Positions 28,447 to 32,174 of a stretch of 47,475 nucleotides of DNA are shown piece after piece. Made by a program: the position numbers and the translations under genes. Under the pieces are notes generated by a model. That model ran no database searches. It saw nothing but the letters and a program-made list of their open reading frames with translations, and was not told where the DNA came from. The stretch comes from Spirochaetaceae bacterium (GTDB taxonomy: Bacteria > Spirochaetota > Spirochaetia > CADAEX01): the NCBI GenBank assembly GCA_009780675.1, contig WQZP01000019.1:1-47475 (forward strand), read 5' to 3'. The first letter of the stretch is position 1, and each line of letters starts with the position of its first letter.

Positions 28447-30114
28447 TTATAGAGGTTTTAATACTCTATTCAAAGTATCTTCTATTTTAGAAATTATTTC
28501 TTCCATTATTTTTGTTAAATCAGAAACATTGCTTTGTTTAACTCTAAAACCTACAGCTCCTGGATGTCCTCCGCCACTTTCAATATTAATTTCTTTTATA
28601 ATATCCCGCAAATCAACTTTGGAAAAAGTGTGGCTTCTTCTCATGCGGAATTGGATCAAATCAGATTCTTCCGGATTATCATAATATACAATAATGCTTA
28701 AGTAACCACTCTCTTCTGCAAGGTTGTCAGCCAGGTGGCGTGCTGTACTTGCAACTAACTCTTTTTTAAAATTCTTGTGAAAATAATCTGCCTCATTTTT
28801 ATCAATGACTATATAAGCAATATGGGCAGATATTTTTTTTCTTTCAATAAAGTAGTTGTAACAAATTTTTTCTTCTTCTGATAATTTTTCAAGTTCATTA
28901 AAAATATCTTCTATAGATGAAAAATTGGAGGAATTAGTATATGTCTTTTCCAGAAGCATTTTATTATAATGGTCGCTGAAAAATTTATAAAATTGACTTT
29001 GTCGCGCAGATTTAAGGTATTTGCCCATTTTGGAATCACTTATCAAGCCTGTAAGTATTGCAACAACAAAGTTGCGTGAAAACAAATCAGGTATATTATA
29101 TTGTTTTTTATCACTAAGCTTAAAAGTTAAGTATGCTATAAGTTCACATGTTGAAGATGCCTCATCCACAAAGCAATAATTATTATCTCCTATGTATCCG
29201 CTGTCAGCTCCCAAATGGTGGTCGACTTCAATTTTAGTTATACTTTTATTGGCAATCATTTCTGCGGTTTTCTTCCCCCCTTCAAGCATTGAAGGCTTGG
29301 GTGTATCAAGTGCAATAACAACATCAAAATTGTTTCCAATATCGTGTTCGGACTCAATAACTGAAACATCGTTATACTTACATATCTGAATTAAGTATGA
29401 AGATTTATGCTGATATTCTTTGTATAAAACAATCGTTACTTTTTTTTGAAATTTTTTTATGATAAGGCTAAAGGCAACCATTGAGGCAATACAGTCTGCA
29501 TCGGGGTCTTTATGCCCAAGTATAAGAAAATTATTTTTTTCAGGGATAATATTGATTATATTGTTTATAACTTTATTTCTTTCTGCAATTGTTGGTATTT
29601 TGCTTTTTCCTGTATCAAAAGAATAACAAATGTTTCTGGATATGGTTATATTGCCTTTAGGCTTTTCCAGAGATTTAAGAAAGGCGTTTTCTGCCTCTTT
29701 TACTAAATCTTCAACAGAATTGGCATTTGCAGGATAGGAGGCAATACCAATGTGTAAGGTAATTTTTTCTCCGCCTATATTAAATTTTTTCGAAGCAGAT
29801 ATTTTTTCAGTTATAATACGGCATAAGCGCAAAGCCTCGCTAGCTTGTGCAGCTACAAGTATACTTGCAAAACAATTTTCACCATAATTACCAATAACAT
29901 TATCTTTTTTAATAAAAGCAAATTTAAATTCTAAAATTACATTTTTTAATATATTTTCCAGATTTTCTTTTTTATGAATTTTGCTCAATTCATCGGATTT
30001 ATCAACTTTAAATATTACAAGAGAAATAGGAAGCCTGTGATCGCTTGAATATGCAAATTTGTCAGAAAGAGAATCAGTCAGAAGTTTTTTGCTGCAAAGA
30101 GATGTATTATTTAT
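28447..30114 (-). CDS. GdpP-like DHH/DHHA1 phosphodiesterase with degenerate GGDEF domain
   Basis: Read from ATA 30114 the protein is 555 residues. Residues about 10-150 resemble a GGDEF domain (LTDSLSDKFAYSS ... LPISLVIFKVDKSDE ... GNYGENCFASIL), with GENCF in place of GGEEF, so cyclase activity is not expected. The DHH domain follows with GHKDPDADCIASM, ALDTPKPS and VDHHLGAD; the DHHA1 domain ends with GGGHPGAVGF near 514. Degenerate GGDEF plus DHH-DHHA1 is the cytosolic layout of GdpP, which hydrolyses c-di-AMP, but the PAS domain and membrane helices of GdpP are absent. The first canonical in-frame start (TTG 29988) would cut the GGDEF fold. ATA 30114 has AAAGGAG 6 bases upstream. It follows pyk in the same frame after pyk's stop. 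Confidence 0.78.
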   Translation of the reverse strand: MNNTSLCSKKLLTDSLSDKFAYSSDHRLPISLVIFKVDKSDELSKIHKKENLENILKNVILEFKFAFIKKDNVIGNYGENCFASILVAAQASEALRLCRIITEKISASKKFNIGGEKITLHIGIASYPANANSVEDLVKEAENAFLKSLEKPKGNITISRNICYSFDTGKSKIPTIAERNKVINNIINIIPEKNNFLILGHKDPDADCIASMVAFSLIIKKFQKKVTIVLYKEYQHKSSYLIQICKYNDVSVIESEHDIGNNFDVVIALDTPKPSMLEGGKKTAEMIANKSITKIEVDHHLGADSGYIGDNNYCFVDEASSTCELIAYLTFKLSDKKQYNIPDLFSRNFVVAILTGLISDSKMGKYLKSARQSQFYKFFSDHYNKMLLEKTYTNSSNFSSIEDIFNELEKLSEEEKICYNYFIERKKISAHIAYIVIDKNEADYFHKNFKKELVASTARHLADNLAEESGYLSIIVYYDNPEESDLIQFRMRRSHTFSKVDLRDIIKEINIESGGGHPGAVGFRVKQSNVSDLTKIMEEIISKIEDTLNRVLKPL

Positions 30115-30120
30115 GTTTGA

Positions 30121-30127
30121 CTCCTTT
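30121..30127 (-). promoter_or_regulatory. Shine-Dalgarno that points to an ATA start
   Basis: Minus-strand AAAGGAG ends 6 bases before ATA 30114. No ATG, GTG or TTG occurs in frame between pyk's stop and TTG 29988, 42 codons into the open frame. This is the evidence for choosing the ATA start for the GdpP-like gene. Confidence 0.6.
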
Positions 30128-30171
30128 CCGACTCTGCCATTGGTCTTATAATTAAAGGCTTGGTTTTCTAA

Positions 30172-31974
30172 TTATAATGACCCCTCGTATATTAACTTCT
30201 CTGTTCCGTCAAGTGTGACTGTAATATTTTCCCCAAATTGGCTCATGGCATTAGGAACATAGGAAAGCACTACAATATCATGATTGACTTTTTGCATATA
30301 CTCTTGTGACACCTCTGATGCCCCTTCAAGTATTATTCCGTCAATTATTGGTAATATTGGAGTAAAAGAAGAATCAAAATTATGTGTAACAAGTATTTTT
30401 GATTCTTTTTTAACCATAAGAGCAGCTGCAGCTTCCTGAAAATTATTTACTTTAACAATCCTTCCTGTGCAATGTTTACCAAATCCTTCTCCGCCTTTTC
30501 CTAAAACATTTCCTATAACATGAACTCTTATATTGTTTGTTGCCAATGGGGAACGTATAGGTATCCCTGAAACAACAATAACTTTATCAAGAGAAGCTGC
30601 GAACCCTTTTTGGATCGCTTGTGTAATAGCGCTTTGTATCATTGCTTCTGAATCTTCTTGCTGCTCTATGGCAACAGGAATAATCCCCCAATACAAAAGA
30701 AGCCGTCGTCTTACTACTTCGCTTGGAGATGCAGCAATAATTGGGCGTCTCGGGCGGTAACGGCTAATCAGCTTTGCAGTGTTTCCGCTTAAAGTTGGTG
30801 CAATAATACAGGCAGCTTCTATTTTATCGGCAACCCACGAAGCAGCATTTGAAATTGTATGGGTAAGGTCAATACCAGCGCCTTTTTCCCTGCGTCGTTC
30901 ATAAAGATGTTTTAAATATTCATCCGAAGATTCTACAGCTCTTGCAATACTCTCCATAACTGTTACTGCAGCTTCCGGATATGATCCACTTGAAGTTTCT
31001 CCTGAAAGCATTATACAGTCTGTGCCATCAAAAATAGCATTTGCAACATCTCCTGCTTCTGCTCTGGTAGGGGTTGGGTTTCTTATCATGGAGTCGAGCA
31101 TTTGTGTAGCTGTTATGACTGGTTTTCCCGCTGCATTGCAAAGTCTTATTATCCTCTTCTGCTCCAAAGGTACCCGTTCTGCAGGAATTTGGACTCCAAG
31201 GTCGCCTCTTGCTACCATTATTCCTGCTGCAACTCTTATGATCTCTTCGATATTATTAAGACCTTCTTCATCTTCTATTTTTGCTATAACAGGCATATTA
31301 GAGCCTATTTCCGAAAGATATTTTTGTATTGTTATAACATCCGAAGCTTTTCTTACAAAAGAAGCTGCAATATAATCCAAATCTTGTTGATGCCCAAAAA
31401 GAAGATCTACTTTGTCTTTTTCCGTAAGAGCAGGAAGTTTTGTTTTTACACCAATTACATTAACATTTTTTTTACTGCCAATTTCTGCGTTATTGACAAC
31501 TTTACACTTGATTACTCTTCCCTCGACAGAAAGGACCATTAGAGCTAAAAGACCGTCTGCTATAAGAATTTTTACATTAGGGATAATATCATCTGCAAGC
31601 TGGTCATAATTTACAGTAACTCTGGTTTTTTCTGTAAAAGCGCCATCATCTCCATATAGCTTTATTGCGTCTGATTCCGCAACTACATCTACCAAATCAT
31701 CTTTCGCAAAAGCAATTTTTGCATCATTGCGGATAAGCCCTGTTCGTATTTCCGGACCTTTTGTGTCAAGGATCAATGCGATCGGTACCCCTTCCTCTTT
31801 TGAGATTTTTTTTACCCTTGCAATATTTCCTGCGTGGAATTCATGAGTATCATGTGAAAGATTAAATCTGGCGAGATTCATCCCCTTCTTTATAAGCGAG
31901 CGAACAAGTTCGTCCGTCCCTACTGCTGGGCCTATAGAACAGATAATACGTGTGTTTCTAATGGATGGATGCAT
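30172..31974 (-). CDS. pyk: Pyruvate kinase with C-terminal PEP-mobile-type extension
   Basis: A 600-residue enzyme for the ATP-forming last step of glycolysis. It begins MHPSIRNTRIICSIGPAVG. Markers are ARFNLSHD, LDTKGPEIRTG, VIAKIEDEEGLNNIEEI, MVARGDLGVQIP, ITATQMLDSMI and IMLSGETSSG. The extra 110 or so residues at the C-terminus (HCTGRIVKVNNF ... ILEGASEVSQEYM) match the extension of Bacillus-type pyruvate kinases, related to the phosphohistidine-type domain of PEP-utilising enzymes. The ATG at 31974 is chosen over a longer frame because AAAGGA lies upstream and the family starts there. The DHH phosphodiesterase follows on the same strand. Confidence 0.96.
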   Translation of the reverse strand: MHPSIRNTRIICSIGPAVGTDELVRSLIKKGMNLARFNLSHDTHEFHAGNIARVKKISKEEGVPIALILDTKGPEIRTGLIRNDAKIAFAKDDLVDVVAESDAIKLYGDDGAFTEKTRVTVNYDQLADDIIPNVKILIADGLLALMVLSVEGRVIKCKVVNNAEIGSKKNVNVIGVKTKLPALTEKDKVDLLFGHQQDLDYIAASFVRKASDVITIQKYLSEIGSNMPVIAKIEDEEGLNNIEEIIRVAAGIMVARGDLGVQIPAERVPLEQKRIIRLCNAAGKPVITATQMLDSMIRNPTPTRAEAGDVANAIFDGTDCIMLSGETSSGSYPEAAVTVMESIARAVESSDEYLKHLYERRREKGAGIDLTHTISNAASWVADKIEAACIIAPTLSGNTAKLISRYRPRRPIIAASPSEVVRRRLLLYWGIIPVAIEQQEDSEAMIQSAITQAIQKGFAASLDKVIVVSGIPIRSPLATNNIRVHVIGNVLGKGGEGFGKHCTGRIVKVNNFQEAAAALMVKKESKILVTHNFDSSFTPILPIIDGIILEGASEVSQEYMQKVNHDIVVLSYVPNAMSQFGENITVTLDGTEKLIYEGSL

Positions 31975-32174
31975 GGTAATTTTTCCTTTATAAAATAGCT
32001 TGAAATAAAAAACTAAATATTTTCTACGATAATTATAAATGCAGATAGGTGAATTTTTCAATAATTTAATTATTTAAAAGCATCAAAAAATTATTATCGG
32101 ATCAATAAAAATAGTCGATTTATTCTATTAAAAAATTATGTAAAATATGCCGTTAAATTAATGAGGAAATCAAA

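Follow-up and report, generated by a model that had tools for sequence, protein, structure and literature searches.

A GdpP-like phosphodiesterase gene behind pyk in a Spirochaetaceae bacterium, most likely started at an ATA codon

In a Spirochaetaceae bacterium, a phosphodiesterase frame opens right behind the pyruvate kinase gene pyk, and its first canonical start codon lies inside a recognizable domain. Where does its translation begin, and what does the gene encode? The window analyzed here (47,475 nucleotides) is contig 19 of a 2.40-Mb genome assembled in 82 contigs and rated 99% complete. A previous sequence-only reading of the window had placed a GdpP-like gene downstream of pyk. This position was borne out, as an open minus-strand frame of 574 codons (28447..30171) begins one codon past the pyk TAA (30174-30172).

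30172..32061, minus strand: pyk, pyruvate kinase with a C-terminal PEP-utiliser-like domain (NCBIfam NF004978 and TIGR01064, above cut-off)
28447..30114, minus strand: GdpP-like phosphodiesterase gene read from ATA, 555 aa (open frame; Pfam GGDEF, DHH, and DHHA1 above cut-offs)

The start of pyk lies somewhere within its ORF and is not settled. pyk adjoins the phosphodiesterase gene in each of the four genomes of the genus; among loci fetched with flanks of 1.5 kb, none outside the genus showed this adjacency. The phosphodiesterase gene is probably co-transcribed behind pyk. Its remaining sequence showed no decay (no stop, no frameshift, and dN/dS like that of other pairs), and the gene is intact and real. 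The genome also carries a distant second pyruvate-kinase-like frame of 625 aa (L107, G000:C2:69556-71028; ~30% identity to the window pyk), and frames of this type occur in the congeners as well.

The predicted enzyme and its relatives in the genome

The Pfam scores of the product were 53.5 bits for DHH, 37.6 bits for DHHA1, and 34.7 bits for GGDEF. The GGDEF motif reads GENCF in the window and EENCF in the congener G003; therefore, cyclase activity is not expected. The domain matched an active GGEEF domain with a TMt of 0.90 (Foldseek), and selection on it was just slightly weaker than on the DHH-DHHA1 part. From the model and the motif, the GGDEF domain is predicted to be catalytically dead but folded. 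In the DHH-DHHA1 part, H201, D205, D207, D270, D298-H299-H300, D360, G514-G516, and H517 (numbered from ATA) were invariant in 25 relatives, with the motif sequences GHKDPDAD, DHH (298-300), and GGGH (514-517), and Foldseek matched this part to TmPDE, the GdpP catalytic domain, DhhP, and NrnA. The Pfam matches, GENCF, and the DHH-family residues support the degenerate GGDEF-DHH-DHHA1 layout claimed before. The claim that PAS and membrane parts are missing also held, since the frame opens directly behind pyk, leaving no room for them, and contains no such sequence.

The best explanation of the product, held jointly with the ATA start and with somewhat better than even confidence, is a soluble enzyme of the GdpP/TmPDE/DhhP kind, a two-metal DHH-DHHA1 phosphodiesterase that carries a dead GGDEF domain as a fusion partner. 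The predicted enzyme probably hydrolyses c-di-AMP and/or pApA, and its fold and sequence fit either substrate. The sequence-only reading had suggested a search for a DisA-type cyclase. A diadenylate cyclase is indeed present, above the NCBIfam cut-off, but it is CdaA and not DisA. A separate NrnA/DhhP-like gene (L012) was also found in the genome.

In addition, the genome encodes a full-length paralogue of cNMP-GGDEF-DHH-DHHA1 layout, whose GGDEF motif is intact (L007:997-3168). In the tree, the pyk-linked genes of the genus formed their own clade among the spirochaete cNMP-GGDEF-DHH-DHHA1 proteins, and this tree led us to reject the idea that they arose recently by duplication of the full-length paralogue in the same genome. 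No full-length paralogue was found in G003, so the pyk-linked enzyme may be the sole one of its type there. Proteins that combine a cNMP-binding domain, an intact GGDEF, and DHH-DHHA1 were found in many Spirochaetia (L007, L008, and L031-L051), and it is possible that in them a diguanylate cyclase is joined to a phosphodiesterase of the c-di-AMP type and controlled by cyclic nucleotides. At other loci (L029, L030, L034, L050, L052, and L053, and in G119/G045/G063), the GGDEF and DHH-DHHA1 parts are two adjacent frames with stops between them. Because such split frames occur in several genomes, the pair seems to have split or fused often.

Evidence on the start codon

The codons and the ribosome-binding site that bear on the start are as follows.

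30121..30127, minus strand: Shine-Dalgarno (SD) sequence AAAGGAG, 7-nt run, 6-nt spacer to ATA
30112..30114, minus strand: ATA, most likely start codon, 6 nt after AAAGGAG, with no in-frame canonical start for 42 codons
30079..30081, minus strand: CTG aligned with the ATG of the congeners, rival start, with no SD (run of 3)
29986..29988, minus strand: TTG, first canonical start codon, inside the GGDEF domain; starting there removes helix 1 and beta-1

Among in-frame ATG, GTG, TTG, CTG, ATA, ATT, and ATC codons, only ATA 30114, CTG 30081, ATT 30027, ATA 30015, and TTG 29988 occur up to and including the first canonical start, and ATA 30114 precedes TTG 29988 by exactly 42 codons. The Pfam GGDEF match covers frame residues 23-168, distant relatives were repeatedly alignable from residue 22-23 on, and the orthologue of G003 was alignable as far as its own ATG. 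For the 30 codons before TTG, the comparison of the window with G003 gave a dN of ~0.29, a dS of ~0.96, and a dN/dS of ~0.3. In the AlphaFold (AF2) model (mean pLDDT 85.5), helix 1 comprises residues 9-25 and beta-1 residues 30-37 (numbered from ATA), and TTG 29988 falls after beta-1. The sequence upstream of TTG is thus coding, as had been claimed from GGDEF-type sequence extending 42 codons upstream of the first canonical start. The Pfam match, the alignment and dN/dS with G003, and the position of beta-1 upstream of TTG together place the true start no later than about codon 12 counted from ATA.

AAAGGAG precedes the in-frame ATA at 30127-30121 with a 6-nt spacer, just as noted earlier, and no ATG, GTG, or TTG follows it closely in any frame. 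The SD runs were 7 nt before ATA 30114 and 3 nt each before CTG 30081 and TTG 29988. In the same genome, runs of at least 7 nt preceded 2.7% of first ATGs and ~0.1% of internal ATGs. Given four near-cognate codons, the probability of a chance SD of such strength is below about 1%. We surveyed 847 kb of the genome (724 ORFs, simple caller) for near-cognate codons that lie ahead of the first canonical start, follow a 6-nt SD, and have no canonical start in the next 15 nt. Only two frames had one, namely the frame with ATA 30114 and a CTG-started hybrid histidine kinase. A 6-nt SD ahead of any canonical start was present in just 16% of the ORFs; therefore, a missing SD does not exclude CTG 30081.

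The hybrid histidine kinase frame (1341 codons; L057:2311-2400, contig C1 from 42311) has AGGAGG 5 nt before its in-frame CTG. There is no canonical start for 84 nt, and the TTG found there is inside the first membrane helix. This CTG is likely a second near-cognate start in the genome. Orthologues of the kinase were not found in the congeners.

By the strength and spacing of its SD and the lack of a canonical alternative, ATA 30114 is the best candidate for the start, in agreement with the sequence-only reading. Translation from it at a low level is the reading we prefer, with moderate confidence. The gene has what a natural AUA-start gene is expected to have, a strong, well-spaced SD before AUA without a canonical alternative. 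Conservation of the codon among relatives was not seen; the segment that holds ATA is absent from the three congeners, so no conservation supports it. The use of ATA, which we regard as most likely, would be lineage-specific, and by analogy with known cases it is plausible that a non-AUG start keeps the level of the enzyme low.

Two other routes to an unusual start were dismissed. infC was not found in the genome assembly, and rplT and 16S rRNA (sought for reading the anti-SD) are likewise missing from it despite the 99% completeness rating. Loss of IF3 as a cause of relaxed start choice was rejected because rplT, normally in the same operon as infC, is missing too, which indicates an assembly gap and not biology. 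Readthrough of the pyk stop (UAA then U) found no support.

The extra segment, the predicted hairpins, and the rival starts

The region between pyk and the gene holds the following further features.

30082..30171, minus strand: segment of 90 nt separating the pyk stop from CTG; 1-9 nt only in the congeners
30142..30182, minus strand: hairpin H1 (predicted), spanning the pyk stop codon (RNA fold, -12.3 kcal/mol)
30053..30137, minus strand: hairpin H2 (predicted), in which the SD arm 30137-30118 pairs with the gene start 30076-30053
30111..30140, minus strand: mini-ORF ATG...TAA of 9 codons (MAESERSQT), whose stop overlaps ATA (ATAA); weak SD (run of 3)

The orthologues in the three congeners are 64-71% identical to the window protein with dN/dS of ~0.2-0.4, and all three segments of the gene are under purifying selection. 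In these genomes, the ATG follows the pyk stop by 1 nt (G003), 7 nt (G001), or 9 nt (G002), and this short distance suggests that translation of the congener gene is coupled to pyk. In the alignment, the ATG of G003 (L004, ATGTACGATTCACTTTCTGAC) falls on CTG 30081 of the window (CTGACTGATTCTCTTTCTGAC). A check of the start codon in relatives, proposed by the sequence-only reading, thus gave ATG in all three, but at the position of CTG 30081. ATA 30114 itself has no counterpart there, so the refuting condition of that reading, an ATG at this position in every relative, does not apply as worded. G001 and G002 lack the GGDEF domain entirely but keep DHH-DHHA1, in frames of 409 and 403 aa, respectively. 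These GGDEF-less orthologues (L005:1495-2694 and L006:1154-2353) keep the first few start-proximal codons and the linkage to pyk.

The 90-nt segment is present in a single copy in the genome; a mobile or repeated element as its source was rejected, since only chance matches were found elsewhere. The NrnA and concatenated trees weakly favored G003 as the outgroup (support 82/73 and 72.6/69); on that topology, the segment would have been inserted in the window lineage. pyk or DHH alone gave no resolution of the branching order among the congeners. Insertion in the window lineage, rather than deletion in the others, is accordingly only weakly favored and not settled.

In H2, the predicted partner of the SD arm is GACUGAUUCUCUUUCUGAC, the old gene start. 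The predicted unpaired probability of the SD is 0.00, versus 0.14-0.80 in 20 AAAGGAG-ATG starts of the same genome. Among GC-matched windows of the genome, 4% fold as well as the hairpin region and 9% as well as H2 alone, so that the predicted stability is moderate and unremarkable, and the masking of the SD is the remarkable part. Pairing of the SD in such a hairpin could reduce expression still more. The mini-ORF from ATG 30140 reads through the SD-masking arm of H2. No known RNA family or riboswitch was found in the region.

We propose that the arrangement of the congeners, with ATG right after the pyk stop and translation probably coupled to pyk, is of the ancestral type. In the window lineage, ~90 nt lie between pyk and the old start, whose ATG corresponds to CTG in the window. 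Translation would begin at ATA 30114 behind AAAGGAG, at a low level owing to the non-AUG codon and the base-paired SD, and the product would hydrolyse CdaA-made c-di-AMP and/or pApA. It is an attractive idea that ribosomes on the 9-codon leader ORF open the hairpin and reinitiate at ATA. The frame, domains, motifs, SD, orthologues, extra segment, selection, and CdaA are direct observations; from these we infer the use of ATA, the expression level, the substrate, and the control by hairpin and leader. We consider the explanation as a whole (ATA start, GdpP-like soluble enzyme, and low expression) a little more probable than all its rivals together. Its most far-reaching form, in which the insertion uncoupled the phosphodiesterase from pyk and the AUA SD is masked by the old gene start and unmasked only by translation of the 9-codon leader, is quite improbable; if it were true, c-di-AMP turnover would be set by leader translation.

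One point against ATA is that the congener gene works without the ATA segment. A start at CTG 30081, matching the ATG of the congeners, with the AAAGGAG upstream being coincidental or serving something else, is rather unlikely. CTG ACT GAT TCT CTT aligns without a gap with ATG TAC GAT TCA CTT of G003, helix 1 of the AF2 model begins just 2-3 residues ahead of this CTG so that the domain would be nearly whole, and the kinase probably offers a CTG start behind AGGAGG in the same genome. However, the SD run is 3 nt before CTG as against 7 nt before ATA, and with the pyk stop 90 nt away, no coupling is expected. The ATA might instead stem from a consensus error in this assembly, which derives from a metagenome, or from a recent change of ATG to ATA that cost the sampled strain its start codon; we judge this account unlikely. 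An ATG in place of ATA 30114 would make an ordinary start site, the evidence for ATA comes from one strain, the assembly is gappy, with both infC and rplT missing, and citZ of Staphylococcus aureus has a lineage-specific AUA of a like kind (PMC13009471). On the other hand, no sign of decay was seen elsewhere in the gene. Consensus errors in assemblies are rare, which also tells against this account.

The 9-codon ORF could also be the real entry, through reinitiation at ATAA or a -1 shift into the main frame. It passes through the SD-masking arm and stops on ATA, but the SD before its ATG is weak, no slippery sequence was seen, ORFs this short often arise by chance, and it is absent from the congeners, which makes this route very improbable. 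Hardly credible is a start at TTG 29988 with a truncated GGDEF domain, or a decaying gene in which only the DHH part matters. The loss of the whole GGDEF in two sister genomes would be in line with it, but TTG 29988 has no SD and lies after beta-1, and comparison of the window with G003 shows purifying selection on the GGDEF part, the 30 codons ahead of TTG included.

Comparison with known systems

Like the window protein, GdpP/YybT of Bacillus and Staphylococcus has a degenerate GGDEF ahead of DHH-DHHA1 and the full set of DHH-family metal-site motifs, and structures of the GdpP catalytic domain (5xsi/5xsp) were among the top fold matches, at only ~18% identity. In contrast, GdpP has transmembrane helices and PAS, and the window protein has neither; therefore, it is GdpP-like and not a GdpP member. 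Pfam GGDEF_GdpP (PF24898) did not match it up to E=1, and the G003 orthologue L004 scored 30.8 against a cut-off of 30. The earlier GdpP reading thus stands for the layout of the cytosolic half, but the protein is not GdpP minus its sensors: it belongs to its own clade and coexists with a full-length paralogue. The closest full-length relatives are the spirochaete cNMP-GGDEF-DHH-DHHA1 proteins such as L007 (37-42% identity, same domain order), in which a cyclic-nucleotide-binding domain is present and the GGDEF motif is intact, whereas the window gene lacks both. TmPDE (TM1595), DhhP, and Pde2/NrnA are soluble like the window protein and share its catalytic fold and motifs. Stand-alone DHH-DHHA1 enzymes have the bare layout of the G001 and G002 orthologues, whereas the window gene retains GGDEF. 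Bare soluble DHH-DHHA1 enzymes are common. Together with a GdpP without PAS known from Mycoplasma bovis (PMC10720645), this means that the layout alone is not startling.

For the start codon, the nearest parallels are infC, ccpN, and citZ of S. aureus, whose AUA starts behind SDs were identified by ribosome profiling (PMC13009471). AUA reporters of ccpN and citZ gave ~10% of AUG expression in poor medium, the ccpN reporter reached up to 30% of AUG in rich medium, and the AUA of citZ is confined to one S. aureus lineage (PMC13009471). The window resembles these genes in having AUA behind a strong SD, and citZ also in being lineage-specific. The S. aureus starts are proven by ribosome profiling and reporters, whereas that of the window is predicted, and its SD is also predicted to be masked. 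By this analogy, the window case would be of the S. aureus AUA-start kind.

The gene is a real one for an ordinary kind of enzyme with an unusual start. Gene finders limited to ATG, GTG, and TTG truncate such a protein inside a domain or misname it. Across four genomes, one locus behind pyk presents an ordinary ATG start, a probable AUA start, and the loss of a regulatory-looking GGDEF domain. It is a small natural experiment in how start codons and sensory domains of a c-di-AMP-type phosphodiesterase are lost and replaced.
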